A stretch of DNA of 64,000 bases from Thermodesulfovibrio sp. 3907-1M (GTDB taxonomy: Bacteria; Nitrospirota; Thermodesulfovibrionia; Thermodesulfovibrionales; Thermodesulfovibrionaceae). The stretch is from contig NZ_CP144373.1 of the NCBI RefSeq assembly GCF_040450955.1, forward strand, positions 310,001 to 374,000, read 5' to 3'. This document shows, in pieces, positions 687 through 18,481 of this stretch. Both the position numbers and the translations under genes were made by a program. Below the pieces are notes generated by a model. The model was not told where the DNA came from. It did no database searches and saw nothing but the letters and a program-made list of their open reading frames with translations. Numbering within the stretch: the stretch's first letter is position 1; each line of letters begins with the position of its first letter.

Positions 687-2233
687 ATGAGATTGATTTA
701 AATGAGGAGTTTCTTAAAGCTCTAAACTTAGCGGAAAATACAGATAAAAACCTATTTATAACAGGAAAGGCAGGAACAGGAAAATCAACATTTTTAACTT
801 ATTTCAGAGAAAATACAAAAAAGAAAGTCGCAGTTCTTGCACCAACAGGTGTGGCAGCAGTAAATGTTAAAGGACAGACAATTCATTCCTTCTTTAATTT
901 TAAACCTGACATCACCATTCATAAAATAAAGGAGATAAAGCCAAGAAATCCAGATCTTTATAAAAAGCTTGACTGTATTGTTATTGATGAAATATCAATG
1001 GTAAGGGCAGATGTTCTTGATTGCATTGATGCTTTTTTAAGAATACATGGACCAAAGAAAAAGAAGCCTTTTGGCGGCATTCAGATGATTTTTATCGGAG
1101 ACTTGTATCAACTACCTCCTGTTGTGACATCAAAAGAAAAAAGCATTTTTAAAGAGTTTTATAAAACTCCTTATTTTTTCAGCTCCAGTGTTTTTAATGA
1201 ATCTGAATTTGAATTCATTGAACTTGAAAAGGTTTACAGACAGTCTGACATTCAATTCCTTGAAATTCTCAACTCAATAAGAAACAACACTGTTAACGAT
1301 GAAATCATTGAAAGACTGAATAAAAGGGTTAATCCTGATTTTGAGCCAGGTGAGGATGATTTTTATGTTTATCTTACGACAACAAATAAAATGGCTGAAA
1401 AGATAAATTCTGAGAAGCTTTCAAAGATAAAAAGTAAAGAATTCAAGTATTATGGCTTTATTGATGGAGAGTTCAACGAACAGGATCTTCCCACATCTCG
1501 GGAGCTTATACTTAAAGTTGACTCTCAGGTAATGCTTCTTAATAATGATACAAAAGGAAGGTGGATAAACGGAGATATAGGTAAAATAGTTGAGATAAAA
1601 TTAAGAAAAACCGAGCCTGATATTATATCTGTAGAGCTTCAAAATGGAGAGACTGTTGAGGTTACCCCATTTACATGGGAGATGTATGAGTTTTACTATG
1701 ATAAAGAAAAGAAAAAAATTTTAACTCAGAGTATAGGACAGTTTACACAATATCCACTAAAACTTGCATGGGCTATAACAATTCATAAAAGTCAGGGGTT
1801 AACTTTTGATAAATTAATAGTTGACATAGGAAGAGGAACATTTTCTCATGGACAGCTTTATGTTGCACTTTCAAGATGTCGCTCTCTGGAAGGGCTGATA
1901 CTAAAAAGACCCGTATGCCAGAAACATATTCTTCTTGACAGAAGAATTGTAAGATTTCTCACTGAGTTTCAGTATAAACATGCAGAAAAAAATCTTCCCA
2001 TTCAGGAAAAAATCTCAATAATAGAGAATGCGATAAAGAATGGAAAAAAATTAGAGATTGTTTATCTTAAATCAACAGATGTAAAGTCAAAAAGACTGCT
2101 AAAGCCTGTTTACATAGGACCAATGCGCTACGGTGATAAAACGTTTCTTGGTTTAAAAGCTTTCTGTATGCTTAGAAACGAGGAAAGAAATTTTAATGTG
2201 GAGAAAATTCTTGATTTAAAGCCTGTTGATTAG
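683..2233 (+). CDS. Pif1-type superfamily 1 helicase with C-terminal WYL-like domain
   Basis: A 516-residue SF1B helicase. Walker A is GKAGTGKST (about residues 27-35), Walker B is VIDEISM, motif III is FIGDLYQLPPV, and the late motifs are AITIHKSQGLTFD and GQLYVALSRCRSL. These are diagnostic for the Pif1/RecD/TrwC branch. After residue about 440 comes a small domain, IKNGKKLEIVYLKS...FLGLKAFCMLRNEERNF...ILDL, which looks like a WYL domain. Pif1-WYL proteins are known in thermophilic bacteria such as Thermotoga. Role by family: 5'-3' unwinding of structured DNA. It forms a two-gene overlap with the transpeptidase, with no obvious functional link. Confidence 0.85.
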   Translation: MNEIDLNEEFLKALNLAENTDKNLFITGKAGTGKSTFLTYFRENTKKKVAVLAPTGVAAVNVKGQTIHSFFNFKPDITIHKIKEIKPRNPDLYKKLDCIVIDEISMVRADVLDCIDAFLRIHGPKKKKPFGGIQMIFIGDLYQLPPVVTSKEKSIFKEFYKTPYFFSSSVFNESEFEFIELEKVYRQSDIQFLEILNSIRNNTVNDEIIERLNKRVNPDFEPGEDDFYVYLTTTNKMAEKINSEKLSKIKSKEFKYYGFIDGEFNEQDLPTSRELILKVDSQVMLLNNDTKGRWINGDIGKIVEIKLRKTEPDIISVELQNGETVEVTPFTWEMYEFYYDKEKKKILTQSIGQFTQYPLKLAWAITIHKSQGLTFDKLIVDIGRGTFSHGQLYVALSRCRSLEGLILKRPVCQKHILLDRRIVRFLTEFQYKHAEKNLPIQEKISIIENAIKNGKKLEIVYLKSTDVKSKRLLKPVYIGPMRYGDKTFLGLKAFCMLRNEERNFNVEKILDLKPVD

Positions 2234-2234
2234 C

Positions 2235-3083
2235 CTATCTTAGAAGATCTCTAAGGTTTTGAGCAAGTTCATTGTTCAAAGGAAACAGTATGGAGACTTC
2301 TTTGTAAGCCCTGTCTTTGTTTCCGATTAAATAATAAAGAATACCTTTCAGATAATGCATATAAGCAGAATTTAAACCTGAATTTTTGATAAACTTTAAA
2401 GCCTCTTCAAAATCTTTCTCAATAATACAGATTCCAACAAGTCTTGCAACAGTCTGTTCATCTTTTGAAAGCATTTTAAAGTACTCCTTTGCTTTTTTAA
2501 AATTGCCAAGACGATAATAAAGAATCGCAATTTTATTTATAATGTTGCCCTCAGGTTTATGTTTCAGAATATCTTCATAAACTGATAAAGCCAAGCTCCA
2601 CTGCCCTGTTTTTTCGTATTGTTCAGCTAAGGCAGTATAGTCAGAGATTTTTTCTTTTCTGGCTTCTTTTTTTATCTCTGAAGGAAATAGGGTTTTAATT
2701 TTTGAGTAAGCTTCGTTCTTATTTGCAGTAAGCACTTTTATATCTCTGTCAATTAAAACTTCTTCTGGATTAAAATAAAGAGGTTTTTTTTGTGAAAAAT
2801 CAATCAATAGCAATGCAATCCCCTTTCTTTTATCCACAATAATAGAATCTCTTACAGAATAAACATACCCATCCTGCATAACAATCAGTTGCGAACGCAA
2901 ATTAGTAATCCATTTTTTTATAGGCTCTATTTTGCTGATATAAATATCGTCTCTTTGAGTTCCAAGAAGCTTATAACCCTGCACAGGATTATAGTTTTCG
3001 TCAATAACAAAAACATAGGTTGACTCACTGGCAAAAAGCAGGGATGGAAGAAGCAGTAAAATAATTACAATTAAACTCTGCAT
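2235..3083 (-). CDS. Secreted TPR-repeat protein, function unknown
   Basis: 282 residues with an N-terminal signal peptide (MQSLIVIILLLLPSLLFA-S). The first half is beta-rich and not recognised. Residues about 145-280 carry three or four tetratricopeptide repeats, for example TALAEQYEKTGQWSLALSVY and IAILYYRLGNFKKAKEYF. It is probably a periplasmic or envelope scaffold. The gene is convergent with the Pif1 gene, with one base between stops. A TAAAAT box ends six bases before the ATG with TG one base ahead of it (extended -10), and no Shine-Dalgarno is visible, so the transcript may be leaderless. Confidence 0.7.
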   Translation of the reverse strand: MQSLIVIILLLLPSLLFASESTYVFVIDENYNPVQGYKLLGTQRDDIYISKIEPIKKWITNLRSQLIVMQDGYVYSVRDSIIVDKRKGIALLLIDFSQKKPLYFNPEEVLIDRDIKVLTANKNEAYSKIKTLFPSEIKKEARKEKISDYTALAEQYEKTGQWSLALSVYEDILKHKPEGNIINKIAILYYRLGNFKKAKEYFKMLSKDEQTVARLVGICIIEKDFEEALKFIKNSGLNSAYMHYLKGILYYLIGNKDRAYKEVSILFPLNNELAQNLRDLLR

Positions 3084-3130
3084 TTAAATATTTTATCATA
3101 ATTGAAGATGCTAATAGGTTAAAATTATTT

Positions 3131-3652
3131 ATGCATCTTATAACTGAAAAAATAGAGAATTTAAAAAACAGGATAAAACAACTGCAGACAAAAGGGCAGT
3201 TATCCAGAATAGAATTCCTACTTGACCAGTTAAAAGAGTTTATACTTCAGGAAAACAGAGAAAGAGCTTTCTGTGGAATGAGTTTAATATGTGCTCAATG
3301 TGGAAAGGAAGGTAAAGCTTGTTGCGGGAAAAATATAGAGTTTAAATACTCTGACGAGCTTCTTTTAATAAATCTCCTTTATGGAGTGGAAATTCCTGAA
3401 GAACCTGAATTTCCTGAAATGTGTTTTTTTCTTAAAAACTCTGGATGCGTGCTCTTTGCAAGAGATGCCTTTTGTATAAATTTTATCTGCGATAAAATCA
3501 AAGAGCAGATTCCACTGGAGAAACTAAAAAAGCTCAGGCAACTGGAAGGGCTTCATCTAAACTTTCAGTTTCAGCTTGAACAGATGCTTAAAAGATTCAG
3601 TGGTGTTTATGATTTCCAAAATTACAGTAAATTGAACTGTTTTCGCACCTGA
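3131..3652 (+). CDS. Cys-rich YkgJ-like putative metal-binding protein
   Basis: 173 residues, cytosolic. The N-terminus is an amphipathic, coiled-coil-prone helix. The core has CAQCGKEGKACCGK and then MCFFLKNSGCVLF..AFCINFICDK, a C-x2-C...C-C...C...C...C...C arrangement like the YkgJ (zinc- or iron-chelating) family. The assignment rests on cysteine spacing only. Its last 56 bases run antiparallel through the end of the convergent CDF transporter gene. Confidence 0.5.
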   Translation: MHLITEKIENLKNRIKQLQTKGQLSRIEFLLDQLKEFILQENRERAFCGMSLICAQCGKEGKACCGKNIEFKYSDELLLINLLYGVEIPEEPEFPEMCFFLKNSGCVLFARDAFCINFICDKIKEQIPLEKLKKLRQLEGLHLNFQFQLEQMLKRFSGVYDFQNYSKLNCFRT

Positions 3653-4487
3653 TACACTCTATTTGAATAACACTATGTTTAATGCCTATGTCTCCCAGTT
3701 TCTCTTCAATCTTTTTTCTTATTTTATCAGCCTCACTTAAAAGTTGATTGTCCACTACCACGTGAGCTGAAAAGGCGGGAACACCGTAACCAATTGACCA
3801 GATATGAATATCATGAACATCAATTATTCCTTTAATCTTTTTTATTTTCTCTGTTATTTCCTCCACATCAAATCCCTCTGGGACAAAGTCAAGAAAAATC
3901 CAAAGAGAATCTTTAATAACTCTTACTCCACCAGTAATGATAATAAAGCCTACAAACCAGCTTATTATTGGATCAATTGTTAGCCAGCCTGTGTATTTTA
4001 TAATTAAGCCCGCTATAATGACTCCTGCTGATGATATGGTATCTCCAATTACGTGTAACCAAGCACTTTTAATATTTAAATCTTCATGCCTGTGTCCCAA
4101 AATCCATGCCATCATAAGATTTCCCAGAAAACCGAATACTGCCACAGGAAGCATTATATCAGAGTCAATTTTTGGAGGATTAAGCAGTCTTTGATAACCC
4201 TCAAAAAATATCAAACCGGCAATTACAATAAGACTTACTCCATTTATAAATGCGGCAAGTATTCCAATTTTATGATACCCATAGGTAGCTTTTCTGCCAG
4301 ATGGTTTTTTAGTAATAATTGATGCAAGAAGGCTTAAAATCAATGCAAAAGCATCTGTAAAAACATGTCCAGCGTCACTGAAAAGAGCAAGACTATTACT
4401 GATGAGCCCACCGATAACCTCAACAATGAAAATAAAAAAAGTTATTCCAACAGCTAAAGATAATTTTTTTGTAGATGACTGTTTCAT
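3597..4487 (-). CDS. Cation diffusion facilitator (CDF) metal exporter
   Basis: 296 residues with about six membrane helices followed by a cytosolic ferredoxin-like domain, the CDF layout. The metal sites of the family are visible: FSDAGHVFTDAFA in helix 2 (D...H..D) and HVIGDTISS in helix 5 (H...D). The C-terminal domain has HDIHIWSIG and ends in an HHKHH-like His cluster with two cysteines (IECIRCENS). It is likely a Zn2+/Cd2+/Co2+:H+ antiporter of the CzcD/ZitB group in the inner membrane. It lies three bases downstream of the inositol-phosphatase-like gene and is probably co-transcribed with it. Confidence 0.88.
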   Translation of the reverse strand: MKQSSTKKLSLAVGITFFIFIVEVIGGLISNSLALFSDAGHVFTDAFALILSLLASIITKKPSGRKATYGYHKIGILAAFINGVSLIVIAGLIFFEGYQRLLNPPKIDSDIMLPVAVFGFLGNLMMAWILGHRHEDLNIKSAWLHVIGDTISSAGVIIAGLIIKYTGWLTIDPIISWFVGFIIITGGVRVIKDSLWIFLDFVPEGFDVEEITEKIKKIKGIIDVHDIHIWSIGYGVPAFSAHVVVDNQLLSEADKIRKKIEEKLGDIGIKHSVIQIECIRCENSSIYCNFGNHKHH

Positions 4488-5396: not shown

Positions 5397-5492
5397 TTGT
5401 CATTCCGAGGGGCTCGATGCCCTGAGGAATCTCTGAGTTCTTCCGATGCTGAAAGAAACTGAGGAGATTCCTCGCTTCGCTCGGAATGACAA
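5397..5492. mobile_element. MITE-like hairpin repeat, copy 1
   Basis: A 96-bp element with perfect 13-bp terminal inverted repeats (TTGTCATTCCGAG / CTCGGAATGACAA) and an inner inverted repeat GAGGAATCTC / GAGATTCCTC, so it folds into a long hairpin. It has no coding capacity. It is followed directly by a CRISPR repeat that has lost its first 11 bases. Confidence 0.8.
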
Positions 5493-5499
5493 AAAAGAG

Positions 5500-6487
5500 T
5501 GACGTCAGGGATTCCTGTTTGGAGACAGGGTTGTCATTCCGAGGGGCTCGATGCCCTGAGGAATCTCTGAGTTCTTCCGATGTTGGAAGAAACTGAGGAG
5601 ATTCCTCGCTTCGCTCGGAATGACAAAAAAAGAGTGACGTCAGGGATTCCTGTTTGGAGGTTGTAACTGTCGTAGTCGCAAGTGACTACGACGTCTCAGC
5701 CCCTGACGTCAGGGATTCCTGTTTGGACGTTACCCTAGGAATTAAGACACCGCAAGCCTGTCTCAGCCCCTGACGTCAGGGATTCCTGTTTGGAGCTATC
5801 TATAGAAAACAATAGTCTGGGCCATTTTTGTCTCAGCCCCTGACGTCAGGGATTCCTGTTTGGAGGGTTATAGCCTCGTATTTGGAAAAGGGGGGATAGT
5901 CTCAGCCCCTGACGTCAGGGATTCCTGTTTGGAGAAGAGCCCCCGAGAAGCAAAAAAAGCTGGGGATAGTCTCAGCCCCTGACGTCAGGGATTCCTGTTT
6001 GGACGAAATTAAGAAAATTATTATTGGAGCCCATGGGGTCTCAGCCCCTGACGTCAGGGATTCCTGTTTGGACTCACCAGGCTCGTGCTTTATCATGATT
6101 TGAAAAGGTCTCAGCCCCTGACGTCAGGGATTTCTGTTTGGAGTCACCCAGCTCGTGTTGATGCATGATTTAAAGTCTCAGCCCCTGACGTCAGGGATTT
6201 CTGTTTGGAGTAAATATAGTCGCCAAGTATGGCGACTACGATGTCTCAGCCCCTGACGTCAGGGATTTCTGTTTGGAGATCTTACAGGGTTTTTTCACAC
6301 CGCTTTCTAGTCTCAGCCCCTGACGTCAGGGATTTCTGTTTGGAGTCTCGTGCTTTACAAAGATTTAAAGAGAGCGGCTGAAAGTCTCAGCCCCTGACGT
6401 CAGGGATTTCTGTTTGGAGTTGAGACTCTTTTGGGGGTCCCAAGGGCCTGCGTCTCAGCCCCTGACGTCAGGGATTTCTGTTTGGAC
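5500..6487 (-). CRISPR. CRISPR array 1 (12 full repeats, 12 spacers, two truncated repeats)
   Basis: Full 36-bp repeats start at 5693, 5760, 5830, 5899, 5969, 6038, 6108, 6175, 6243, 6310, 6384 and 6452. Truncated 25-bp repeats lie at 5500 and 5635, each after a hairpin element. Spacers are 31-38 nt. In the transcribed (minus) sense the repeat starts TCCAAACAGG, holds the perfect palindrome CCCTGACGTCAGGG and ends GCTGAGAC. Cutting at the stem base would give an 8-nt crRNA 5' handle GCUGAGAC, as Cas6 does in type III systems. Orientation follows from the leader and cas genes on the right. The six leader-proximal repeats (6108 onward) carry ATTTCTG and the six older ones ATTCCTG. Confidence 0.97.
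5531..5626. mobile_element. MITE-like hairpin repeat, copy 2
   Basis: Near-identical to copy 1 (same terminal and inner inverted repeats), in direct tandem with it. Between them lie the truncated repeat 5500-5524 and a few bases. It is again followed by a truncated CRISPR repeat (5635-5659). Confidence 0.8.
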
Positions 6488-6641
6488 TATTCCTCTGTAA
6501 CCCATTGTTTTCAAAGAGCTTTTTTGGGCGTTTTTGCAAACCTCTGCAGTTTTGAAAGTTTTCAACAACTTTTCAACATAGGTTTGCATACTTGCATTGA
6601 AATTATACAATAAATGCATCTTTATCATCAATTGATGGTGA
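6488..6641 (-). promoter_or_regulatory. CRISPR leader 1 (duplicate, carrying the cas2 tail)
   Basis: It matches 8009-8162 over 154 bp with two substitutions (6591 and 6593). It contains, on the minus strand, a -35 TTGATG (6626-6631), an 18-bp spacer and a -10 TATAAT (6602-6607), so it should drive array 1. Its outer part still encodes the last 12 codons and stop of Cas2 (SPSIDDKDAFIV), a remnant that shows where the copy came from. Confidence 0.85.
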
Positions 6642-6720
6642 TTGAGTTTTCACTGTTTTTGCTCTCCTATGGAAGAAGAATGAGATTGCCACGCCTTTGG
6701 CTCGCAATGACAGCTTAGGG
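6642..6720. other. Junction between leader 1 and array 2, no gene
   Basis: Non-coding. It holds half of another short repeat (GAGATTGCCACGCC...CTCGCAATGAC, about 6681-6711). The bases just before copy 3 (CAATGACAGCTTAGGG) nearly match those before copy 1 (AAATGACAGATTAGGG), so the duplicated unit extended at least this far. Confidence 0.5.
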
Positions 6721-6816
6721 TTGTCATTCCGAGGGTGGCATTCCACCCGAGGAATCTCTGAGTCTTTCAATGCTGAAAAAAACAAAGGAGATTCCTCGCT
6801 TCGCTCGGAATGACAA
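6721..6816. mobile_element. MITE-like hairpin repeat, copy 3
   Basis: Same terminal inverted repeats as the other copies. The inner sequence differs slightly (GGTGGCATTCCACC in place of GGCTCGATGCCC). It is followed by a truncated CRISPR repeat at 6826-6850. Confidence 0.8.
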
Positions 6817-6825
6817 AAAAAAGAG

Positions 6826-8008
6826 TGACGTCAGGGATTCCTGTTTGGACTAAGGTTGTCATTCCGAGGGGCTCGATGCCCTGAGGAATCTCTGAGTTCT
6901 TCCGATGCTGAAAAAAACTGAGGAGATTCCTCGCTTCGCTCGGAATGACAAAAAAAAGAGTGACGTCAGGGATTCCTGTTTGGACAGCCCACCGTGGGCA
7001 TGGGGATTTAGCCCGTGTGTCTCAGCCCCTGACGTCAGGGATTCCTGTTTGGACTTCAAAAAGAAGTAAAAAGTATATCACTCTCAGAGAGTCTCAGCCC
7101 CTGACGTCAGGGATTCCTGTTTGGACACGAACTGATCGAATTTATAAGAAACATGGGTGTCTCAGCCCCTGACGTCAGGGATTCCTGTTTGGACATTTTT
7201 TGAGACTCTTTTGGGGGTCCCAAGGGGTCTCAGCCCCTGACGTCAGGGATTCCTGTTTGGACTGGGAAGCCATCTTTTATTGTCTGGATAAACAGAGTCT
7301 CAGCCCCTGACGTCAGGGATTCCTGTTTGGACTCCTGTACTAGAGTCTATAGAGAAAGATATTCTGTGTCTCAGCCCCTGACGTCAGGGATTCCTGTTTG
7401 GACTTAAGGTTGTAAAAGCTGTCTTCTGAGTGAAAGTCTCAGCCCCTGACGTCAGGGATTCCTGTTTGGACATTTTTTGAGACTCTTTTGGGGGTCCCAA
7501 GGGGTCTCAGCCCCTGACGTCAGGGATTCCTGTTTGGAGGCTTACTGAAGAATTTGGGTTGTCTACTGCAAAGTCTCAGCCCCTGACGTCAGGGATTCCT
7601 GTTTGGACTATGGCGACTACGATGTTATTTATTTCAACACGGGTCTCAGCCCCTGACGTCAGGGATTCCTGTTTGGACTTAAGGTTGTAAAAGCTGTCTT
7701 CTGAGTGAAAGTCTCAGCCCCTGACGTCAGGGATTCCTGTTTGGACACGGAGGAAGAGCTCCGTAAAGTCCCCTTTGTCTCAGCCCCTGACGTCAGGGAT
7801 TCCTGTTTGGACTGAGCCATTATGGCTAACCAGGCTCATACTTTGTCTCAGCCCCTGACGTCAGGGATTCCTGTTTGGAGTGCAGTTGAAGAACTATTTG
7901 TAGTAGGAGACAATGTCTCAGCCCCTGACGTCAGGGATTCCTGTTTGGAGTGTTACATGAAGGGATAATAAAGTCTCAGCCCCTGACGTCAGGGATTCCT
8001 GTTTGGAG
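6826..8008 (-). CRISPR. CRISPR array 2 (15 full repeats, 15 spacers, two truncated repeats)
   Basis: Same repeat as array 1. Full repeats start at 7019, 7091, 7159, 7227, 7297, 7368, 7436, 7504, 7573, 7643, 7711, 7777, 7845, 7915 and 7973; truncated ones at 6826 and 6961 each follow a hairpin element. All full repeats have the ATTCCTG form. Spacers are 30-36 nt except the leader-adjacent one (7951-7972), which is only 22 nt. The spacer at 7404-7435 recurs at 7679-7710, and that at 7195-7226 recurs at 7472-7503. The last repeat base (plus strand) is always C or G. The leader is at the right, next to cas2, so this is probably the active array. Confidence 0.97.
6856..6951. mobile_element. MITE-like hairpin repeat, copy 4
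   Basis: Near-identical to copies 1 and 2, in tandem with copy 3 and followed by the truncated CRISPR repeat 6961-6985. It repeats the arrangement at the old end of array 1. Confidence 0.8.
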
Positions 8009-8162
8009 TATTCCTCTGTAACCCATTGTTTTCAAAGAGCTTTTTTGGGCGTTTTTGCAAACCTCTGCAGTTTTGAAAGTTTTCAACAACTTTTCAACAT
8101 AGGTTTGCATATTCGCATTGAAATTATACAATAAATGCATCTTTATCATCAATTGATGGTGA
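8009..8162 (-). promoter_or_regulatory. CRISPR leader 2 with promoter inside the cas2 3' end
   Basis: AT-rich leader directly abutting the first repeat of array 2. On the minus strand it has -35 TTGATG (8147-8152), 18 bp, then -10 TATAAT (8123-8128). The -35 lies within the last cas2 codons, and the TAA stop of cas2 is part of the -10 region. The stretch from the -10 to the first repeat holds T- and A-tracts and repeated TTGAAAA motifs, which may bind DNA-bending proteins during spacer integration. Confidence 0.8.
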
Positions 8163-8417
8163 CGGTCTTCCCAGGGTTTTTGCATCTACTATGTCTGTAA
8201 GAAGATATATCTTTATGAATCCTGTTTTCACATTAAGAGCCTGTAGTTCAGCAATAAGCTTTTTCTTAAGAAATTCATTTAGTTTACACTCAAAAACGCT
8301 TTTTTGAACCCTGAATCCATAGTTTTTGAGAATCCTATCTACCTTAAGTCTCTCTCTGTTATCAGAAATATCATAAACTACTACATACTCATTGAATCTC
8401 TTACCACGGTATCTCAA
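8124..8417 (-). CDS. cas2: CRISPR-associated endonuclease-fold protein Cas2
   Basis: 97 residues. The ferredoxin-like start VVVYDISDNRERLKV (Asp 16) and GFRVQKSVFEC are the standard Cas2 motifs. It should bridge two Cas1 dimers during spacer integration. The start is TTG at 8417, supported by an AGGAG about seven bases upstream, and overlaps the end of the Cas6-RT-Cas1 gene by 17 bp. The C-terminal tail (SPSIDDKDAFIV) is encoded by DNA that also contains the array promoter, so tail sequence and promoter cannot change independently. The same tail is preserved as a fragment beside array 1. Confidence 0.95.
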   Translation of the reverse strand: MRYRGKRFNEYVVVYDISDNRERLKVDRILKNYGFRVQKSVFECKLNEFLKKKLIAELQALNVKTGFIKIYLLTDIVDAKTLGRPSPSIDDKDAFIV

Positions 8418-10932
8418 AGATCAGCTCCTCATCTTTTGTGATCCAATTTTTAATCTTTTCTACCTGAGCATAGATGAAATCGTTTAAGGTTGATGAACCG
8501 ATGCTATAAAATTTGTTCAGATACTCTTCATAATGAACTATTAAGGTATCAAGCATTGATGATTTTAATACAAAGGCACCGTCTATTTCTTTAAAGTCTT
8601 TTTTTTCAATCACTTTGAGGTTTATGAGGTTTACTATAAAGTTGTCCATCTTTGCTCTTAAAAGTTCCTGCAGGTCTGCTACAAGAGATTCATAGTTGTT
8701 GTCAGGACTATGAAGAAATCCAAGATAAGGATTAAGTCCATTGGAGCAAACAACGGTTCTGATTCTGTTGAATGTAAGGTGGCTGCATAGATTCATCAGG
8801 GAGTTTATAGGATCGGGAGTTTTTCTTTTTCGTGTTTTTATATGGAAGTCTCGGTTTTTTATGAGTAAGTTCAGTGCTGCATAAATCTCTTTTGCAGCTA
8901 TGGCTTCGTATCCGCGGATTGTCTCTAAGGTGGTTGCTTCTATGATTTTTTGTCTTAGATGTTTAAGTTTGTCCTTTATTGGACTGGCAAAAAGATTTCG
9001 CTTATAAGTGAGGAATATTTCATAGCTTTTTAGTTTTAAAGAGACAATTTGTTTTGCATAAAGGTTTATCATCTCATCTGTGAGAGAGTAATACTTTGTA
9101 GTGTGTCTTACTATGGATTCGTAGTGGGATTTATGGTCTGATTTGACAATGATTACAGGAGACATAAAGTTTGAAGCTATGATCAGAGGAATGTTGTTTT
9201 TTATACATTTTCTGAGCATGGGCGTGGTGATTACCGTATCAGTATTGATTATTATTTCGCTTATTCTGTTGAGTGGCACTGTTTGATTTTCTCCCTGCGC
9301 ATTGGTGATCTTTACTGTGTCGGAAGAGATGCTTAGATGGGTGTCTGGGGTGGCTATGTAGAGAGGTTTTCTCAATCGTTGTTGATGCTGTGGTGTCTGG
9401 ATGTCTATCCCTGCAAATGTTATGGATTCTTGACTGTCATATTTTATTGATCTTTCATTTATTCTGAGATTTAGATTTTGCAGTAACTGTTTTGCTTGAT
9501 TGAGTTTTTCATTTAACGCTTCTTCACTTAAGGAGAAAATAAGATAGGTATCGGCATGTCGGAGGGCAACTGTTTCACTGTCGTTTAAGGCTCTGTCTAA
9601 ATCAATAAGATAAATATTTGCAAGAAGAGGAGAGAGTGGACTTCCCATGGGGAGCCCTTTTTTGCGGGTCAGAAGCTTGCCTTCATGAATGTAGCCAGCT
9701 TTAAGAAGTTTTTCAATAAGTTTTATTATGAAGTGATCAGAAAGGGGAATGATTCTTTTTAGCTGGTTTAAGAGTTTAGTATGGTCTATCTGAGTATAAA
9801 ATCCGTCTATGCTGAAGGTGAGGATTTTATCATATCCAGAGGTTATGAGTTCGTCAATACGAGCTTTTATGTCTTTGCCTGAAATGTGGGGTCTAAAGCT
9901 CAGCACTGTAAGAGGCAGTATGTTGTCAACTGGATTTTTCAGGATTTTGTAGATGAAAGAGTGCAAAATCTGGTCTTTCCAGTATAGTTTTTCAGTAAGT
10001 ATATTGTCTGCAATGAAAGCTTCTGAAGCATTAGGTTCATAATCGGCAGTAATGAATGAGTTGTAAAGCTGTTTTGTTATTTCCTGTGAGTTTAAGCCAT
10101 TAAATTTTTCTTTGTTTTTGTCAACATAGAATTGGAGAGTTTCTATGATGGGAATTGAGTTGATGTATGATGGTGAATTATCTTGATAGATTATGTAGTA
10201 GCCTCTGCCATAGGATAAATGACTGCCTGCATGGAGTTCTGAACACAATATGAGATAGGGAAGCACGGTGTCAACTTCGCCACGAAGATATATTTTGCCT
10301 GTGCATCCGTTGATGTATCTTGTGTTGCCTCTTTGAGAAAGAGACTCTACAGCAAGTTCTTCATAACTCCAGTAGGGAAGAAAGACTGTTTTTTCTTCAT
10401 TAAATGTGATTGAGCTTTCTATATGGAAGAGTCTTTTAAGTCTTGATGACAGCAGAGAAAGAAATTCTGATAATGAGATATGAGCTCTTTTTTTGGGATG
10501 TGATGGTTTGAAAGCAAGAGGTGTGAGAAAATCAATACATAGCTCTTGCTGTTTTGCTAATTTTTCGTAAAGTTCCTCATAAAGTAGGGAGTAGTTTCTG
10601 AATTCAGGGGGTGAGATTTCCAGAAGCCTAATGTTTCTTGAGTTCCAAGGGTCTTGAAAGTAAACCTGAATGGCATTATAAAAAATCGTTGCTTGCTGTG
10701 GTGTCGTGAGAAGTAAAAATGTGACATGAAATTTTTTATTTTTACTAAGTCTGTATTTTAAGGGTTTTTCGTTAATGTGAAAAATTATTTTTTCATTATT
10801 AAAGGCGATTGCATTGTTGACTTCTTTTGTAACTGCTTCAATAATTGAGTAAACGGATGTGGATAGAGTATTTTTTGCCTCAAAGCCTGCCTTAACTCTG
10901 AACCAGTGAATATCACTGAAGAGATTTTGCAT
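8401..10932 (-). CDS. Cas6-reverse transcriptase-Cas1 fusion
   Basis: 843 residues in three parts. Residues 1 to about 270 are Cas6-like, ending in a Gly-rich loop (GSHLSYGRGYY, about 236-246). Residues about 300-525 are a group-II-intron-type reverse transcriptase: motif A FSIDGFYTQID (Asp 376), motif B GLPMGSPLSPLLAN (426-439), motif C at 459-462. Residues about 530-843 are Cas1 with its metal ligands GYE (Glu 676), GFLH (His 741) and Asp 753. Motif C reads HADT where active enzymes have YADD: the first Asp stays and the second is Thr. Known fusions of this shape acquire spacers from RNA. No other cas6 gene is in the locus, so this protein probably also processes crRNA. It lies 14 bases downstream of the 635-aa RAMP gene. 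Confidence 0.93.
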   Translation of the reverse strand: MQNLFSDIHWFRVKAGFEAKNTLSTSVYSIIEAVTKEVNNAIAFNNEKIIFHINEKPLKYRLSKNKKFHVTFLLLTTPQQATIFYNAIQVYFQDPWNSRNIRLLEISPPEFRNYSLLYEELYEKLAKQQELCIDFLTPLAFKPSHPKKRAHISLSEFLSLLSSRLKRLFHIESSITFNEEKTVFLPYWSYEELAVESLSQRGNTRYINGCTGKIYLRGEVDTVLPYLILCSELHAGSHLSYGRGYYIIYQDNSPSYINSIPIIETLQFYVDKNKEKFNGLNSQEITKQLYNSFITADYEPNASEAFIADNILTEKLYWKDQILHSFIYKILKNPVDNILPLTVLSFRPHISGKDIKARIDELITSGYDKILTFSIDGFYTQIDHTKLLNQLKRIIPLSDHFIIKLIEKLLKAGYIHEGKLLTRKKGLPMGSPLSPLLANIYLIDLDRALNDSETVALRHADTYLIFSLSEEALNEKLNQAKQLLQNLNLRINERSIKYDSQESITFAGIDIQTPQHQQRLRKPLYIATPDTHLSISSDTVKITNAQGENQTVPLNRISEIIINTDTVITTPMLRKCIKNNIPLIIASNFMSPVIIVKSDHKSHYESIVRHTTKYYSLTDEMINLYAKQIVSLKLKSYEIFLTYKRNLFASPIKDKLKHLRQKIIEATTLETIRGYEAIAAKEIYAALNLLIKNRDFHIKTRKRKTPDPINSLMNLCSHLTFNRIRTVVCSNGLNPYLGFLHSPDNNYESLVADLQELLRAKMDNFIVNLINLKVIEKKDFKEIDGAFVLKSSMLDTLIVHYEEYLNKFYSIGSSTLNDFIYAQVEKIKNWITKDEELIFEIPW

Positions 10933-10946
10933 ACTCGTTAGACCCT

Positions 10947-12854
10947 TTATTTTATTACATCTTGAGGTTTTGGTAAAATTTTTCTTTGTTTAAATTCTTC
11001 AAGAGAGAGGTATTCGGTATCCTTGTTGTCTGGTTTATGAATAAAATCAAGCATTATTCTGAGTCGTTTCATCCTTTCCTGATTCCAGAGGCTGGTTTTT
11101 GTTTTGTCTCCGAGTTTTTCAAGAATGTAGGACTCAAAGGCTTTTTTAAACTCTTCTGCGTTAACAGGTTCTAATGGTTCGTTCCATTCGGAGAATAAAT
11201 CTTTATATCTTTTGCACCTGTTTGAAAGATAAAGTTTTGGAGTAATTCTAATGGAGCCAAGTCCAAGAGGCTTTCCCATTCCAAGTTTATGGGCACAGCC
11301 CTCTGGTAGTTCAATGGCAAAAAGCAGTGCTCCAAGTTCAATCTTTGATAGGTTTTCAAAACGGATCCTGCCACGGAATAAGGTGCCCTCTTTTACAGGG
11401 GTGATCTTTGTGTGCTGGGTTTCGTAAATGCCTATGGCATCGTAGAATTTTAGTTTCAAATCTGCTGGTAGTTCTGTTAATTTAAGTTTTACTTTCCCTT
11501 TTTGTTTTACTTTCCCTTTTTGTTTTACTTTCACTTTTTCAGAATAGATGAATTTTTCTATGTCTTTTATGTTGATTTTGATGGTTTGTATAAATTTATT
11601 AAACTCTTTCTCGTCAAACGAGATTTCCTCTTCCTGCCATACCTCTGGCTTACTATTTGCATCCCTGTGCCAGTAGAGTTTGTAGCCACGAATATTATTG
11701 CTGTTGTTGTAATGGGCAAGATTATTGGGAAAAAATTCAAGATTTTTTTCATCCTGCTCCAGATAATGCTGGAAAGCCGTTGGTTTTGGTGAGGAGAGAA
11801 TTTTTGGGATTGACATATCAAGAAGTGGATTATCAGTGCCTGTGTAGTAGGCGTCTTCAAAGAATACCCTGCTTGCATGGCTTGTTTCTACGCCAAATAT
11901 AGCTTCTGCTATGTCCATGATATTTTTATTTTTAAGGTTTTCAGGGATATGGTCTCCAATGGTTTTTTCATAGGGAATGCGAAACATGAGAGTGTGTCCA
12001 AAGGCAATTCTCTTTTTCCCTCTATGATCATTGTATTCACTATAAAAGCATGGGACTTCTTTTTCAGTTTTAAGCTTTTCTATGAGATTTATCTCTGCTT
12101 TTCTTGTCTTATCATTCAAGTAATCATAAATATCATCTTCGGAAAGAGGAATTTTATCGTTGTAGTTTTTAGGTTTTGCAACGAAGTATTCATGTTTTTT
12201 GTTATCCATATGTCCTGACACTACCAGATATCCATCTTTGTCTTTGTATTTAACAGAATAGAAATTAAAGGGCTTTGCATCTTTAACCAATTCTTCTACT
12301 TCCTCTTTAGGTATCTTCTTATATTCTGTCTTAACTATGTAGTATTTTAAGCCTTCCTTAATAAGGAAGCCTGCTTTTGGTTGTATCTTGCTTGTATACT
12401 CATTTCTGAATCTTTTACATTTATCAGCAAAGCTTCTAAAGTATAGACGCCTGTTATCAAAAAACTCAAACTTTCCAAAACTCACTATCTCAACCATAGT
12501 TCTTATCATTCCTCTTAAGGAGCTACCTGGGATGCGAAGGATGCCTCCTGGTGAGAAGAAGTCTGGATTTATGTATTGCTCTTTATTCTTTTCCTTGATT
12601 AACTTCTCTCTGTATTCGTCCTCTGTAAGGGTGTCTCTGATATAAAGAGGCGTCAAGGTTTTTATCTCAAGATCAATGTAGCCAGTGTATCTGTCTTTAT
12701 GGTATCTGTCAAACTCAGGTATTTTTTCAGCAGGGATGACTTCTTTATTAAGTGGAATGAAGTTGTAAGGAGCATGAGAGTAAATATCTGTGGTTTGTTG
12801 CTGCTTATTATTTTGTTGCTGCTTAATATATGTTTTTTTTTGTTTATGCTTCAT
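10947..12854 (-). CDS. Large RAMP protein, TIGR03986 type (Cas7 with insertion)
   Basis: 635 residues. A Gln/Lys-rich start (about residues 1-22) leads into YNFIPLNKEVIPAE, typical of the TIGR03986 RAMP family. Next come a Cas7 core with IPGSSLRGMIRTMVE, a long insertion (about residues 140-300), GVETSHASRVFFEDA, and a Gly-rich end AHKLGMGKPLGLGSI. In subtype III-D complexes such a Cas7-insertion subunit sits in the backbone. Residues about 444-460 contain tandem copies of KVKQKG, encoded by an 18-bp DNA repeat. A strong AGGAGG precedes the start. Confidence 0.85.
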   Translation of the reverse strand: MKHKQKKTYIKQQQNNKQQQTTDIYSHAPYNFIPLNKEVIPAEKIPEFDRYHKDRYTGYIDLEIKTLTPLYIRDTLTEDEYREKLIKEKNKEQYINPDFFSPGGILRIPGSSLRGMIRTMVEIVSFGKFEFFDNRRLYFRSFADKCKRFRNEYTSKIQPKAGFLIKEGLKYYIVKTEYKKIPKEEVEELVKDAKPFNFYSVKYKDKDGYLVVSGHMDNKKHEYFVAKPKNYNDKIPLSEDDIYDYLNDKTRKAEINLIEKLKTEKEVPCFYSEYNDHRGKKRIAFGHTLMFRIPYEKTIGDHIPENLKNKNIMDIAEAIFGVETSHASRVFFEDAYYTGTDNPLLDMSIPKILSSPKPTAFQHYLEQDEKNLEFFPNNLAHYNNSNNIRGYKLYWHRDANSKPEVWQEEEISFDEKEFNKFIQTIKINIKDIEKFIYSEKVKVKQKGKVKQKGKVKLKLTELPADLKLKFYDAIGIYETQHTKITPVKEGTLFRGRIRFENLSKIELGALLFAIELPEGCAHKLGMGKPLGLGSIRITPKLYLSNRCKRYKDLFSEWNEPLEPVNAEEFKKAFESYILEKLGDKTKTSLWNQERMKRLRIMLDFIHKPDNKDTEYLSLEEFKQRKILPKPQDVIK

Positions 12855-12867
12855 TGAATTCCCTCCT

Positions 12868-13431
12868 TTATTTAAGTTGATTTTTGCTGTCTAAAAATTC
12901 AATGAATCTACAATCATTGTATGTAGCGAGATGAGTTTCAGAATTAAAATGGACATAGTTTCTCGTTCTGATAAAGAGACGATTTTTTTTGTTATCCACG
13001 GTAAATTTGCTAAAAGGCAGTATTAGTTGAGTCCCTCTTTCCTCAAAAATCCTTGTCCAGCCATTACCATAATCCTCTTTATCTGTGCCCCACAACACCT
13101 GACGGGCATCAACTACATGGGTTTCTTCTCCTTCTTCATCAATTCTCAATCTTCCTTTCAATCCTTCCTCTGTTTGCCATACTAAAAGTTCTTGCCTGAG
13201 GTTGAATATTCGTAACTTAATTAAGTAGTCTGGATTTATTTTTTTGTTCTGGTAAAACTCAAACTCTCCGTTTATAAACTTTCCAATCAGAACTTCATTG
13301 GTGAGATAGGCAACAGCATACGCAGGAGATTCAAAATAGCTTGAGACTGTCTTTTTTAGGTCATCAATTTCAGAGATGATTACAACTTTTGATTGTATTT
13401 TCTTTAGTTCAAGTCCATTGGCAACTAACAT
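12868..13431 (-). CDS. csx19: Csx19 family protein of the III-D complex
   Basis: 187 residues, mostly beta. AVAYLTNEVLIGKFINGEF, LRIFNLRQELLVWQTEEGLKGR, ARQVLWGT and RTRNYVHFNSET correspond to the Csx19 family, found almost only in subtype III-D loci. In the Synechocystis III-Dv complex Csx19 is a structural subunit near Cas10; its biochemical role is not settled. The start overlaps the end of the double-Cas7 gene by seven bases and has GGAGGTG before it. Confidence 0.8.
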   Translation of the reverse strand: MLVANGLELKKIQSKVVIISEIDDLKKTVSSYFESPAYAVAYLTNEVLIGKFINGEFEFYQNKKINPDYLIKLRIFNLRQELLVWQTEEGLKGRLRIDEEGEETHVVDARQVLWGTDKEDYGNGWTRIFEERGTQLILPFSKFTVDNKKNRLFIRTRNYVHFNSETHLATYNDCRFIEFLDSKNQLK

Positions 13432-14744
13432 GTTTCACCTCCATAGTTTACCAAAGCATCTACAAAATCCTGAAGCTTCTTTTTGTCTTCGCTTTTAAGT
13501 TTTGATGGATCATCAATTACTATGTTCAGGCTGTTGTATTTTATCTCTGCTGTTTTACCTTCAAGAACTCCTCTTCCTATGGACTTTTCTCCTCCCACAG
13601 CAATGTCTCCTGTCCAGAGGTCTTTTAGTAAAAGAAGTATTAGTCCTACTTCGTGGGGTTCAGGGTTTTCTATGGTCAATCTTACATGGAAAAGGCTTTC
13701 GTTTTTGCCTCTGAACAGAGGCTTTGTCTCCATAAGAGCAGTTTCAATTGTGCCACCTGTAAATCTGTCTATCTTTATTCTGGTTTGAACTTCAGAGGGA
13801 AAGTCTTTGAGAATTGTCTCTTCAACTATAAGCCTTCCTTTTATGGGTTTATCAACATTAGCTCCTGCACTGCCAAAGAGGAAATCCAGAATTTTCATTG
13901 GCTTTTCAAGTGTGTTTATAATTCTTTCTGCCCTTGCACGGATTGCACCTTTAAGTGAGGTGCCTGGAAGAACATAGTCATTCCCTGATTTTATATGCTC
14001 TGTGTCAGGTAGATTTGGATCCACTGAGTAGGAGCGAACAATAAGAGAGTTTTTAATTGTGAAGAAGGCATCTACTGTAAACTTATTTTCAGACAGTTTT
14101 ATGGGACTGTATTGAAAGACAGTGGATTCAGGAAGTATGTCAGTCCTGCGGTATTTAAACCAGTTGACAACGTCTTGTTTTCTTGAGAAGTCAAACTCAC
14201 AGATTTTGTGGTCTTTAAGTTTCATTCTGCCAAAGCCACTGCTTGTTTTTGCACCGACGCGAACTTTTTCATTTTTAAGAAGCTCAACTATGGTGGCGAG
14301 CATCTGTTTCTTAAAGTCGTCCTCAACTCCGTTAAGAGTTATCTCAAGATTGAGACTGAAGGTGCTACCTTTGTCTATTATTTCGTAGTCAAATTTTGCC
14401 TTATCCTCTGCAATGCCCTTTTTGTTGTTGATTCTGACTCCGTCACGAAATGACACAGAAACATTTCCAATGGGTAAAAGATCACTACAGGCAATGGAGC
14501 TCTGGGTTGAATTTTCCTCATCAGAGCGTTTTGTCCCCCAGAAGTATTCAATCTTAGAACTATCAATCCCTACATTTTCTGTCTTATGTCTGAGTACACC
14601 GATAAAGGATGTGGCAGGTATAAATGGTCTGCCAGCACTGTCTTTCATTACATCAAGGTCACTGTTTTCTTCCATACCAGAGCCGATAATTGCAGGCGAT
14701 AGAAGCTCAATGATTCCTTTAAGTATGAGTTTTCCCTTTACCAT
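13425..14744 (-). CDS. Double Cas7 (two Csm3-like RAMP domains)
   Basis: 439 residues made of two RAMP folds. The first (about 1-195) has IIGSGMEENSDLDVMKD and FIPATSFIGVLRHKTE. The second (about 210-439) has YVLPGTSLKGAIRARAE and a Gly-rich end GEKSIGRGVLEG. Csm3-type subunits cut target RNA with an Asp in the loop after the first strand; SDLDVMKD in domain 1 is the candidate. In domain 2 the equivalent region reads SYSVDPNLPD. This matches the Cas7-2x subunit of III-D complexes. Start supported by GGAGG. Confidence 0.85.
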   Translation of the reverse strand: MVKGKLILKGIIELLSPAIIGSGMEENSDLDVMKDSAGRPFIPATSFIGVLRHKTENVGIDSSKIEYFWGTKRSDEENSTQSSIACSDLLPIGNVSVSFRDGVRINNKKGIAEDKAKFDYEIIDKGSTFSLNLEITLNGVEDDFKKQMLATIVELLKNEKVRVGAKTSSGFGRMKLKDHKICEFDFSRKQDVVNWFKYRRTDILPESTVFQYSPIKLSENKFTVDAFFTIKNSLIVRSYSVDPNLPDTEHIKSGNDYVLPGTSLKGAIRARAERIINTLEKPMKILDFLFGSAGANVDKPIKGRLIVEETILKDFPSEVQTRIKIDRFTGGTIETALMETKPLFRGKNESLFHVRLTIENPEPHEVGLILLLLKDLWTGDIAVGGEKSIGRGVLEGKTAEIKYNSLNIVIDDPSKLKSEDKKKLQDFVDALVNYGGETC

Positions 14745-14746
14745 GT

Positions 14747-16255
14747 CTACCTCCTATTTTGCATTTTCCTTAATACGGAAAGAAGGGTTGAGAGATAGGT
14801 TTTTTTGAGTTTTGTCAAAATATCTGAGTTATTGATATCAAATAGCTCAAAATCCCTTAAGATTCTATTAAAATTATGCTCATTTAGAAGATTTTTGAGT
14901 TCCTCGTGATTATCTTTTTTCAGAAAATCAACGAGGAAATCATAGAGGGTTTGCTCACTGGTTTTGCATTTTGTAAGATGATTTTTCGCTGTTGTTTTGA
15001 GATTCTTAAGAAGTTCGGTAAGTTTATCCTCTGTAACAGCCTTTTCAAGCTTTGAAAGCAGGGATTTTGGCGGAATATTTTTTTCAAATTCTGATGCCTT
15101 GCGTATTGCAATTTTTTGAGTATTAGCGATGAGGAATTCTTCTGCAAGCGAACTAATGATGGATTTTAAAGCTTGTGGAGGAGTACTGACAGGTTTGCTG
15201 TATTTTTTATCTTTCTGTGCTATGTAGTATTTCTCACTTTCCTGCCATCCAATAACAAATCTTCCAAATCCAAGATGGGTGAGCATACCTATGCCTTTTT
15301 TCTGAAGCTGTCTGAGTCTGGGTATATCATCTTCTTTTACATCAATGATAAATGCAGAGCCTGCTGTAAAGCATATCTCAAGAGGTGTTTTAAGTCTCCA
15401 AACTGAGATAAATCCTTCCCATTCTTTAGCTCTGATAAAAGCTTTCTTTACAGGACAGCCTATAGCTCTCTCAAACTCCTTTATATCAACTACAGGAAAG
15501 CCATTTTCATTGTAAATGATCGTATCTGAAAGCAGTGTGAGAACAGCCTCACCAGCCTTAATATCTGAATCTTTTATCTCAGAGTAAAACTCAAAGGGTT
15601 CATCGCTAAGTATCTCAAATCTTACTTTTCCATACTGGTTACTTTTTGACCGTCCAAGATAGTAAACACCTTGGGGAAAACTCTTTTTAAATTCCAGCAG
15701 ATTCTCAGCACTACTGAGTATGAATCCCTCAAAAACCTGTCCTTCATCAATTGACTCGTAGTTGAATATAATTCCTTGTTTCGCAACTCCCGTGTGTCTG
15801 TCCCTTGAGTGGTGGAAGTTAATAGATTTATTGAGACTTTCAAGATAAATGCTGCTTTCTTTCAGTCTGCAGTAATTGCCATCAAAGGGTTTTGTCTGTA
15901 TTTCTTCATCTTCTATCTCTGTAAGGAGTAAATCGTAGATTTTACTGTCATCGTGCTTTTCCCTCTGTATGGAAAGAGGCACAGGATAATGTATCTGGAA
16001 TTCATTTTGGTAGTCTCTGCTTGCAATGTAGGCATTGAGGAATTTTATCTCGCCCTTTATAAACCACTTGAAAAATCTCTCATCGCTTTCTGCTACAGCA
16101 TTGAGCTTATTTTTCTCTATAAACTCATTTGCAAAAAGACCTCTTAGATGACTGCCAGGGATATAATCAAGGGTTGCAACCATGTTGGGATCTCCTGTGT
16201 TAGAACTAAAAATAAGTGGTGACAATGCAGTTATGCGATATCTTATTGCTTGCAT
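14747..16255 (-). CDS. csx10: Csx10 (Cas5-group RAMP) with helical C-terminal extension
   Basis: 502 residues. The RAMP part has YIPGSHLRGLFANEF near the start, LGRSKSNQYGKVRFE in the middle and the Gly-rich GIGMLTHLGFGRFVIG at about 321-336, matching Csx10, the Cas5-like subunit that marks subtype III-D. Residues about 358-502 are nearly all helical and charged, with no RAMP motif. Since the operon has no separate small subunit (Csm2/Cmr5), this tail may be a fused Cas11. That is inference; a Cas7-5-11 fusion is known in type III-Dv. Expected role: holds the crRNA 5' handle. It lies one base from the preceding stop, with GGAGG before the start. Confidence 0.83.
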   Translation of the reverse strand: MQAIRYRITALSPLIFSSNTGDPNMVATLDYIPGSHLRGLFANEFIEKNKLNAVAESDERFFKWFIKGEIKFLNAYIASRDYQNEFQIHYPVPLSIQREKHDDSKIYDLLLTEIEDEEIQTKPFDGNYCRLKESSIYLESLNKSINFHHSRDRHTGVAKQGIIFNYESIDEGQVFEGFILSSAENLLEFKKSFPQGVYYLGRSKSNQYGKVRFEILSDEPFEFYSEIKDSDIKAGEAVLTLLSDTIIYNENGFPVVDIKEFERAIGCPVKKAFIRAKEWEGFISVWRLKTPLEICFTAGSAFIIDVKEDDIPRLRQLQKKGIGMLTHLGFGRFVIGWQESEKYYIAQKDKKYSKPVSTPPQALKSIISSLAEEFLIANTQKIAIRKASEFEKNIPPKSLLSKLEKAVTEDKLTELLKNLKTTAKNHLTKCKTSEQTLYDFLVDFLKKDNHEELKNLLNEHNFNRILRDFELFDINNSDILTKLKKTYLSTLLSVLRKMQNRR

Positions 16256-16256
16256 A

Positions 16257-16919
16257 CTAACCCTCCATTTGCTTTATAAAATCTAACTCTTTTTCTCCTT
16301 CAAGTAGACTGCATCTTATCTCACCAAAGCCTCTGTTTCGCCTCGTTCCAAGTCTTGTGAGATTTAAACAGGCAAAGGAAAGAAGCATTAGAAATGAATC
16401 AGTGTTCTCTTTAAGTAAGACTGTGCCTTCAAAAACCGTTCCTTTTTTCAAAACTCTGCAGGTTCTAAGAGAGCCTTCCTTAGCCACTCCTTTTTCAATG
16501 GATGTTTGCTGTCTGATCTCTGTGTAGTATTTTCTGATTCCTTCAGGATTTACAATGTTTTGATATTCTTCCATACAGTAACTAAGCCATTGTCTGAGTT
16601 CATCATAATCTTTAACTGTGAGATTTGAGATAAACAGAGGGGAAGGCTTTTCACAGCCTGGGCTTCCAAAAAGTTGATTCACTATCAAGTATTCAGATGA
16701 GTTCTTTGTGAGGTCAAAGATTTTTATGCCAGCAGAACTAAGCATCTCACATACCTCTGTAGCTGAATCTCTAAGACATCCCTTAATTCTTTTTGAAGGA
16801 ACATATGGAATGCCAATCTCGTCAAACACTACATCTGAATCAATAACTGCACCAAAGCCTTCAGCAGAACCTACAAGGCAAGCAGACTTTAACTCAATCT
16901 TTAGTTTAAGCTGTTTCAT
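16257..16919 (-). CDS. Csm3-like Cas7 backbone subunit
   Basis: 220 residues, a single RAMP domain. LVGSAEGFGAVIDSDVVFDE carries the loop aspartates used by Csm3 to cleave target RNA. VPSKRIKGCLRDSA is the RAMP helix motif, and RLGTRRNRGFGEIRC is the Gly-rich loop. It should be one of the crRNA-binding backbone subunits of the III-D complex. Its ATG overlaps the Cas10 stop by four bases and has GGAGG upstream, consistent with coupled translation. Confidence 0.83.
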   Translation of the reverse strand: MKQLKLKIELKSACLVGSAEGFGAVIDSDVVFDEIGIPYVPSKRIKGCLRDSATEVCEMLSSAGIKIFDLTKNSSEYLIVNQLFGSPGCEKPSPLFISNLTVKDYDELRQWLSYCMEEYQNIVNPEGIRKYYTEIRQQTSIEKGVAKEGSLRTCRVLKKGTVFEGTVLLKENTDSFLMLLSFACLNLTRLGTRRNRGFGEIRCSLLEGEKELDFIKQMEG

Positions 16920-18481
16920 TGTTCGCCTCCATTTAGTGCAAACTCTGGATAAAGCTCCATGAGCTCTATCATGTCAAGATATGGAGTTTTCTCATCTATA
17001 ACAAGCTTTGTTCCATTAAAATGTTTGTATCCTGGTAATCGTATCCCCCTTGCTCTAAGCTCAATCTCAAATAATTCCTGTGCATGCCTGCCAGAGTAAA
17101 GGGCTTCTCTAAGTTTCATTATCTTTGTTCTTGGATACATGCTTTTGCCTCTTTTATCCTTTTTCTTTAGTTCATATACTCCTTTTAAGAGTTCGTCAAG
17201 CTCAGAGAGTTTATAGGGTCTTAATGTAAGCGAGTAACCGGAGAATTGATAGTGATTTTTTCTTATCTCTTCAATAGAGCCAGAGAATCCTCCATAGGAA
17301 AGATGAAAGTCAATCCATGAGCCATCATCTCTTTCGTATTTTCTTCTGTCTTTTGCTTTTTTAAGAAGCTGTTCGGCAAGAGCATAACCTCTGTAAAAAG
17401 GATATTTTGTCTTTGTAATTGCCACACCTGCACAGGCACTTATTCGTAATCCATCACTAACTTTTTGTCTTTCAAACTCTTCAAGAAACAACTTCGCAAG
17501 CCATACTCCAAGCCTGCCTTCAGATACAAAGGTTATGTCATCTCCACCTATGATTATCGGTCTTACTGGGAGTATCGTTTTATTATCTTTCTTGTGCAGT
17601 TCAAAGTCATTACTCATTCTTGGAATCTCTTCAATGAGTCTTTTGAGCATTATCTTAAAGCATCTGAGAGTTGCTTCAGTCAGGGAGACTGAGAGCTTCC
17701 GTAAATCAGGTAGAGTTTTCTGATTCATGAATCTTTTACTCATATTATTTCCATCTATGTGAACGATAGCTATGTGGCTGTCTTTATGTTTTTTCTGACC
17801 AAGCTGTTCAAGCTCATTTGTAAAATCATACTGCTCTGGTAGAGCATTTTCCTCAATCACATTTTTTAAAATCTCCCTGTATTTCTTAGTTGCTTGGTCT
17901 ACTACCGCTATCTTTGCATTGGCAACACTTGATATGTAATCCCTCTCATCAGATGGAAGGTTATCACACCATACCTCTCTGGAATAACCAGTTCTTGCAC
18001 AATCAGCTGTGATGCCATGTCTTGGAATCACTGTTTGCGGAACGAATTTTGCTTTGTTTTCGGCGAGAGTTTCAAAAAGAGTCTTCAGAGTTTGGGAGAA
18101 GTTGTCATTAAGATCAATTCTGCCAATAGCAGCAGCTACTGTGACCCCAGGACAGTAAACAAGAAGCATTTTACTCCATTGTTCAATAAACTGCCTTGCT
18201 TTGTTTTCATCGGCAAAAAGTAAGAAAGCATTTCCTCCACCGACATAACCTACTTCATAGGGTGCGTCTTTTTTTATTGCTATTTTTTCAGGTTTGTTTT
18301 TCCAGTCCTCCAGTAGTGAGCTGTTCACTTCACCAAATACTTCTTTGATTGCTTCTTCAAGATAGACTTTGTAGATTTTCTCTTCAACTATGAAGGATGC
18401 ACCCAGATTTTCTTTGAGATTGTTGGTACTGAAGATATACTTCTGGATGGATACTGTGTCAAGTAGCACGCCAAAACACAT
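16916..18481 (-). CDS. cas10: Cas10 large subunit without HD domain
   Basis: 521 residues. It opens directly with palm-type sequence (VLLDTVSIQKYIFSTNNLKE), with no HD nuclease domain, as usual for subtype III-D. The first palm domain has GGGNAFLLF (about 81-89). The second has the cyclase motif IIIGGDDITFVSEG with GGDD at 312-315, and VHIDGNNMSKRF before it. Intact GGDD predicts synthesis of cyclic oligoadenylates on target RNA binding, which fits the CARF effector encoded just upstream. The missing HD domain predicts no Cas10 DNase. A strong AAAGGAGG precedes the ATG. Confidence 0.92.
   Translation of the reverse strand: MCFGVLLDTVSIQKYIFSTNNLKENLGASFIVEEKIYKVYLEEAIKEVFGEVNSSLLEDWKNKPEKIAIKKDAPYEVGYVGGGNAFLLFADENKARQFIEQWSKMLLVYCPGVTVAAAIGRIDLNDNFSQTLKTLFETLAENKAKFVPQTVIPRHGITADCARTGYSREVWCDNLPSDERDYISSVANAKIAVVDQATKKYREILKNVIEENALPEQYDFTNELEQLGQKKHKDSHIAIVHIDGNNMSKRFMNQKTLPDLRKLSVSLTEATLRCFKIMLKRLIEEIPRMSNDFELHKKDNKTILPVRPIIIGGDDITFVSEGRLGVWLAKLFLEEFERQKVSDGLRISACAGVAITKTKYPFYRGYALAEQLLKKAKDRRKYERDDGSWIDFHLSYGGFSGSIEEIRKNHYQFSGYSLTLRPYKLSELDELLKGVYELKKKDKRGKSMYPRTKIMKLREALYSGRHAQELFEIELRARGIRLPGYKHFNGTKLVIDEKTPYLDMIELMELYPEFALNGGEQ

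Follow-up and report, generated by a model that had tools for sequence, protein, structure and literature searches.

A conserved, catalytically degenerate reverse-transcriptase domain in the Cas6-RT-Cas1 fusion of a Thermodesulfovibrio type III-D CRISPR locus

The motifs of CRISPR-linked reverse transcriptases (RTs) have been called well conserved (PMC10415136), and a fusion gene of Thermodesulfovibrio sp. 3907-1M in which HADT stands in place of the catalytic box raises the question of what its RT domain still does. We analysed a window of 64,000 nucleotides around this gene, to which all coordinates refer unless another source is named. The gene lies on the minus strand, where the frame stays intact across all 843 residues as had been claimed, and the plus strand of the same interval is full of stops. 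Along this single chain, Pfam finds CRISPR_Cas6 (5e-7), then RVT_1 (1.5e-17), then Cas_Cas1 (2e-51), and the gene adjoins cas2 and a CRISPR array, i.e., it has the makeup of a Cas6-RT-Cas1 adaptation fusion. The surrounding features are as follows.

5693-6486, minus: second CRISPR array, 11 spacers, with a leader copy at ~6487-6671
7019-8007, minus: CRISPR array adjoining cas2, 14 spacers between full repeats, leader at ~8008-8193
8124-8417, minus: cas2 (TIGR01573), overlapping the end of the fusion gene
8401-10932, minus: Cas6-pseudoRT-Cas1 fusion, 843 aa, ATG start at 10932
10947-12854, minus: Cas7-type RAMP, III-D (PADLOC, NCBIfam)
12868-13431, minus: csx19, III-D (PADLOC, NCBIfam)
13425-14744, minus: Cas7, III-D (PADLOC, NCBIfam)
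14747-16255, minus: csx10/Cas5, III-D (PADLOC, NCBIfam)
16257-16919, minus: Csm3-like Cas7 (PADLOC, NCBIfam)
16916-18481, minus: Cas10d, short (521 aa), with a GGDD palm and without a match in an HD domain search
18512-19744, minus: Card1-like protein, CARF plus PD-(D/E)xK nuclease

Cas10d, Csx10/Cas5, Csx19 and the III-D Cas7 proteins are all present according to PADLOC and NCBIfam, and the type III-D system of the locus is complete, in the order Card1-like nuclease, Cas10d, Csm3-like Cas7, Csx10, Cas7, Csx19 and RAMP, past which come the fusion, cas2, and then the leader and CRISPR arrays. The assignment of a Cas6-RT-Cas1 fusion to a III-D locus, made in a preliminary description of this DNA, thus agrees with both the domain matches and the neighboring genes. 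Within the fusion, we located the following domains and positions.

10147-10932, minus: Cas6 domain, approximately residues 1-262 (Pfam PF10040 at residues 133-246), conserved with the relatives
9388-10080, minus: RT-fold domain, approximately residues 285-515, catalytically degenerate (RVT_1 at 320-510)
9811-9813, minus: Ser374, at the position of the motif A catalytic Asp
9646-9648, minus: Met429, at the position of the motif B Gln
9547-9558, minus: HADT, residues 459-462, replacing [YF]xDD of motif C
9448-9450, minus: Ser495, at the motif D/RT-helix Lys position (K574 in the solved Cas6-RT-Cas1)
8404-9366, minus: Cas1 domain, residues 523-843, with Glu676, Arg703, His741, Asp753 and Glu756

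Motif C reads LRHADTYL (residues 457-464), which bears out the HADT box reported earlier. The accompanying claim that RT motifs A and B were kept does not hold: The motif A Asp is replaced by Ser374 and the motif B Gln by Met429, where motif A was placed by alignments to the Cas6-RT-Cas1 structure 7kft (matching the RT region of the fusion at profile positions 273-511), to GsI-IIC RT and to 14 other CRISPR-linked RTs. An Asp within the sequence SIDG sits two residues beyond the catalytic position at Ser374, and across the fusion and its two closest relatives (see below) that position reads D, K and E, so that it offers no conserved acidic substitute. The K..G..R block of the RT fingers holds the dNTP; this Lys/Arg block is lost as well, and its Arg is absent in all three fusions. 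The residues of an active RT, i.e., the motif A Asp, [YF]xDD, the motif D Lys and the fingers Lys/Arg, are thus not found here. By comparison, other CRISPR-linked RTs, taken from further genomes of this phylum and from cyanobacterial, proteobacterial, Arcobacter and Rhodococcus plasmids, show no variation at the Asp of motif A, the Gln of motif B or the DD of motif C where the aligned rows cover them; the fingers Arg is present in the rows covering that position, and the motif D Lys is kept in all aligned sequences except one split MAG gene. One fusion in this set (G108:C29, L055) has a TAG that splits its RT from its Cas1; YADD is kept there and the motif D Lys is unaligned. Because five separate catalytic features are missing from the window fusion, and not one, the earlier suggestion that RT activity may be lost is better supported than when it was made. 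These residues give strong support for a loss of polymerase activity, and restoring the second Asp alone would not be expected to bring RT activity back.

The domain nevertheless appears to keep its shape. Modelled alone, it reached a pLDDT of 73.6, for a model built on three sequences only and with the other four of five models much less confident, and this model matched GsI-IIC RT (6ar1) with a Z score of 21.0 and an rmsd of 3.1 over 230 residues. Together with the RVT_1 match, this similarity identifies a group II intron-like RT fold, which on the model is retained in the degenerate domain. A full-length AlphaFold model of the fusion (pLDDT 49.7) was too poor to describe the RT-Cas1 contact.

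Two full-length relatives were found, one in Thermodesulfovibrio sp. N1 (NZ_MAVV01000023, 53% protein identity) and one on a MAG contig (CALDSV010000043, 49%). Both carry HADT, with Thr or Ser at the motif A position, Pro or Leu at motif B and Ser at motif D, and the three HADT fusions group together as a clade in the RT tree and in the Cas1 tree, with 100/100 support in each. HADT does therefore mark a clade, as had been proposed, with a sample of three members from three heat-loving species, one of them from a MAG. The same III-D genes and the same succession of cas2, leader and repeats surround the fusion in N1 and in the MAG as far as their contigs extend. Beyond these three, no members were detected in 176 genomes of the order, in 396 of the phylum or in viral contigs, and a scan of 84,980 species genomes with short peptide patterns, which may miss some, returned the two relatives only. 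The nearest relatives outside the clade, in genomes G029 and G129 of the same order (~31-33% identity), resemble the window locus in the III-D gene order (G129) or in the repeat (G029); unlike the window fusion, they keep all RT motifs, with the motif A Asp, Y[AV]DD, the motif D Lys and the fingers residues present. A further relative, at positions 1817-3824 of a contig in genome G106 (G106:C23, L052), is broken, with a stop codon in its Cas6 part, the motif A region and the RT-Cas1 junction lost in frame, and a Cas1 truncated before cas2; either decay or an error in the MAG assembly could explain this.

The tempo of change differed between the RT and Cas1 domains. On the stem branch of the clade, the RT accumulated 2.87 changes per column versus 0.94 for Cas1, and on a fixed topology the ratio of stem length to length inside the clade was 1.13 (0.78-1.53) for the RT versus 0.48 (0.38-0.69) for Cas1 (bootstrap P ~0.003). 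Within the clade, identity is 48-55% for the RT, 53-58% for Cas1 and 41-46% for Cas6, stops and large deletions are absent from the RT domain of all three species at ~50% protein divergence, and dN/dS is well below 1, where dS is saturated and the exact value unreliable. Such a burst followed by renewed constraint fits a loss of catalysis and subsequent selection on the remaining shape. The best explanation of the aligned residues is that the catalytic positions were lost once, in the ancestor of the three species.

Is the adaptation machinery nonetheless in use? The active-site residues Glu676, His741 and Asp753 of the Cas1 integrase are all present in the alignment, in line with the earlier observation that the Cas1 ligands are complete, and Arg703, the equivalent of Arg835 in the solved fusion, is kept. 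The cas2 of the window is 66-75% identical to that of the two relatives, and Cas1 and Cas2 both look intact by sequence. A leader and repeats come after cas2 in each of the three clade species, the MAG contig stopping at the first repeat. Between full repeats we counted 25 spacers in the window and 8 in the available stretch of N1, none of them shared. The RT losses are older than the common ancestor, and spacers are replaced quickly; the spacers of the window and of N1 were therefore most likely acquired with the RT already dead. The two other Cas1 genes of the genome adjoin arrays with different repeats, which makes the fusion the probable integrase of the III-D array. We also considered a second RT acting in trans and rejected it, as a PF00078 search of the complete genome matched the fusion only.

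Solved and engineered relatives indicate what such a protein might do. The Cas6-RT-Cas1 of Thiomicrospira (7kft/7kfu) has the same order of Cas6, RT and Cas1, a thumb-less RT, the Cas1 active site and Arg835, and works with Cas2; it makes cDNA and has the motif A Asp, FADD and the RT-helix Lys where the window fusion has Ser, HADT and Ser (PMC8102632; 7kft chain numbering equals paper numbering + 3, as derived from His873 and the FADD motif). In that protein, D540A or K574A abolished RT activity and cut RNA ligation by >80%, while DNA ligation fell by only 20-33% (PMC8102632). The fusion of Marinomonas mediterranea, again with the same domain order, differs from the window fusion in that the wild-type RT is active and acquires RNA spacers (PMC11014452, PMC10415136); its RT-deleted and mutant forms are the laboratory analogue, as DNA spacers were still acquired without the RT domain, and the RT domain impeded the integration of dN-tailed RNA if uncoupled from cDNA synthesis (PMC11014452). 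CART-CAPP fusions likewise retain an inactive polymerase domain in a CRISPR adaptation protein, although in their case it is the Prim-Pol that lacks activity and the RT that works, whereas here the RT itself appears inactive (PMC10415136). The Cas6-Cas1 fusion of Hydrogenophilus thermoluteolus plasmid pTH1 resembles the window fusion in having no RT chemistry, but lacks the RT domain altogether; it groups with the Cas6-RT-Cas1 family in the Cas1 tree at moderate support (87/80). This RT-less fusion, at 224-2071 of pTH1 (L067), is annotated as Cas1 only.

We consider it probable that the window fusion is a DNA-only Cas1-Cas2 integrase bearing a pseudo-RT lobe that has been kept as a scaffold or gate, a reading we favor because the protein resembles the laboratory RT mutants, with a natural loss of K574 plus others. 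Cas6 would cut the pre-crRNA, and Cas1 with Cas2 would integrate DNA prespacers beside the leader, as the intact active sites and species-specific arrays suggest. Synthesis of cDNA would not take place and RNA could no longer be converted into spacers, and RNA ligation would be expected to be poor as well, given the replacement of the Lys574 equivalent. Both the DNA-only acquisition and the gate or scaffold role are extrapolated from the published mutants; a retention of the domain for structure or substrate selection, as proposed earlier, would fit this reading.

The lobe may instead have been rebuilt, such that the LRHADTYL hairpin and the changed RT-helix let DNA in and keep RNA out, or bind a new ligand, and thereby control the Cas1 active site. 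All eight residues of LRHADTYL are invariant in the clade and one motif C Asp is retained, and such an Asp is not obviously needed by a purely passive scaffold, which counts against that simplest form of the favored reading. The invariance of the run by itself is not beyond chance (P 0.09), and we regard the rebuilt lobe as a tentative and rather unlikely proposal. The same retained Asp and invariant run, together with the fold kept in the RT-domain model, could also point to a functional variant RT in which HADT and its neighbors form an altered working site that is slow or uses different metals or nucleotides, and some viral RNA-dependent RNA polymerases do function with an altered second Asp of motif C. 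Against such a variant clade, which the preliminary description had offered as its alternative, speak the Ser or Thr in place of the metal-binding motif A Asp without a conserved acidic replacement, the missing motif D Lys and dNTP-binding fingers residues, and the loss of RT activity on D540A or K574A singly in the solved relative (PMC8102632), and we consider it very improbable.

That the RT has no role and is drifting toward loss, with its frame kept open only for the Cas1 downstream in the same chain, would account for the accelerated RT stem and has parallels elsewhere, namely the Hydrogenophilus plasmid fusion, an RT loss event reported for Butyrivibrio Cas1 (PMC6753606), and the broken fusion with a partly deleted RT in genome G106. 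Decay in progress is at odds, however, with an RT domain that is about as conserved as Cas1 at ~50% protein divergence in three species, is free of stops and large deletions in all of them, and yields a full RT fold model, and we hold it to be unlikely. Least credible of all, to the point of being negligible, is that HADT arose by chance or as a misreading of YADD, for which no supporting point was found: Because the motif is identical in two further species at 49-53% protein identity, all three independently sequenced, and is accompanied by other catalytic losses, we rejected sequencing error.

The open-access papers, which set the scope of our literature search, contained no description of a dead RT retained in a Cas1 fusion. 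If the favored integrase reading is right, this clade is a natural counterpart of the separation-of-function mutant that laboratories built, and it makes two questions testable: what role the RT lobe has apart from cDNA synthesis, and what type III systems gain or lose from RNA recording. It also means that an RT-Cas1 label alone is no proof of RNA spacer acquisition.

The arrays themselves displayed several further features. The leader is duplicated, so that each of the two arrays has its own copy (6487-6671 and 8008-8193, 93.5% identical). Searches for the origin of the spacers in phage records, in genomes of the genus, in the local sequence and by exact viral scans produced no convincing match; two of them form strong hairpins, with little excess of hairpins overall. 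Three spacers, at 6419-6451, 7194-7226 and 7471-7503, go back to one common source, two being identical and the third overlapping by 27 bases in a shifted position, and another spacer is present twice, at 7403 and 7678. Copies of the III-D repeat also occur outside the arrays, at 5400-5640 and 6715-6985 of the window and at 285.4-285.6, 748.8-749.0, 1029.8-1030.2 and 1824.2-1826.1 kb of G000:C1 (L075-L078). These copies alternate with an inverted repeat resembling a MITE, GTCATTCCGAGCGAAGCGAGGAATCTC. At three loci, they interrupt an apparent transposase gene, possibly of IS256 type, at the same site, and array fragments were apparently dispersed together with a mobile element.
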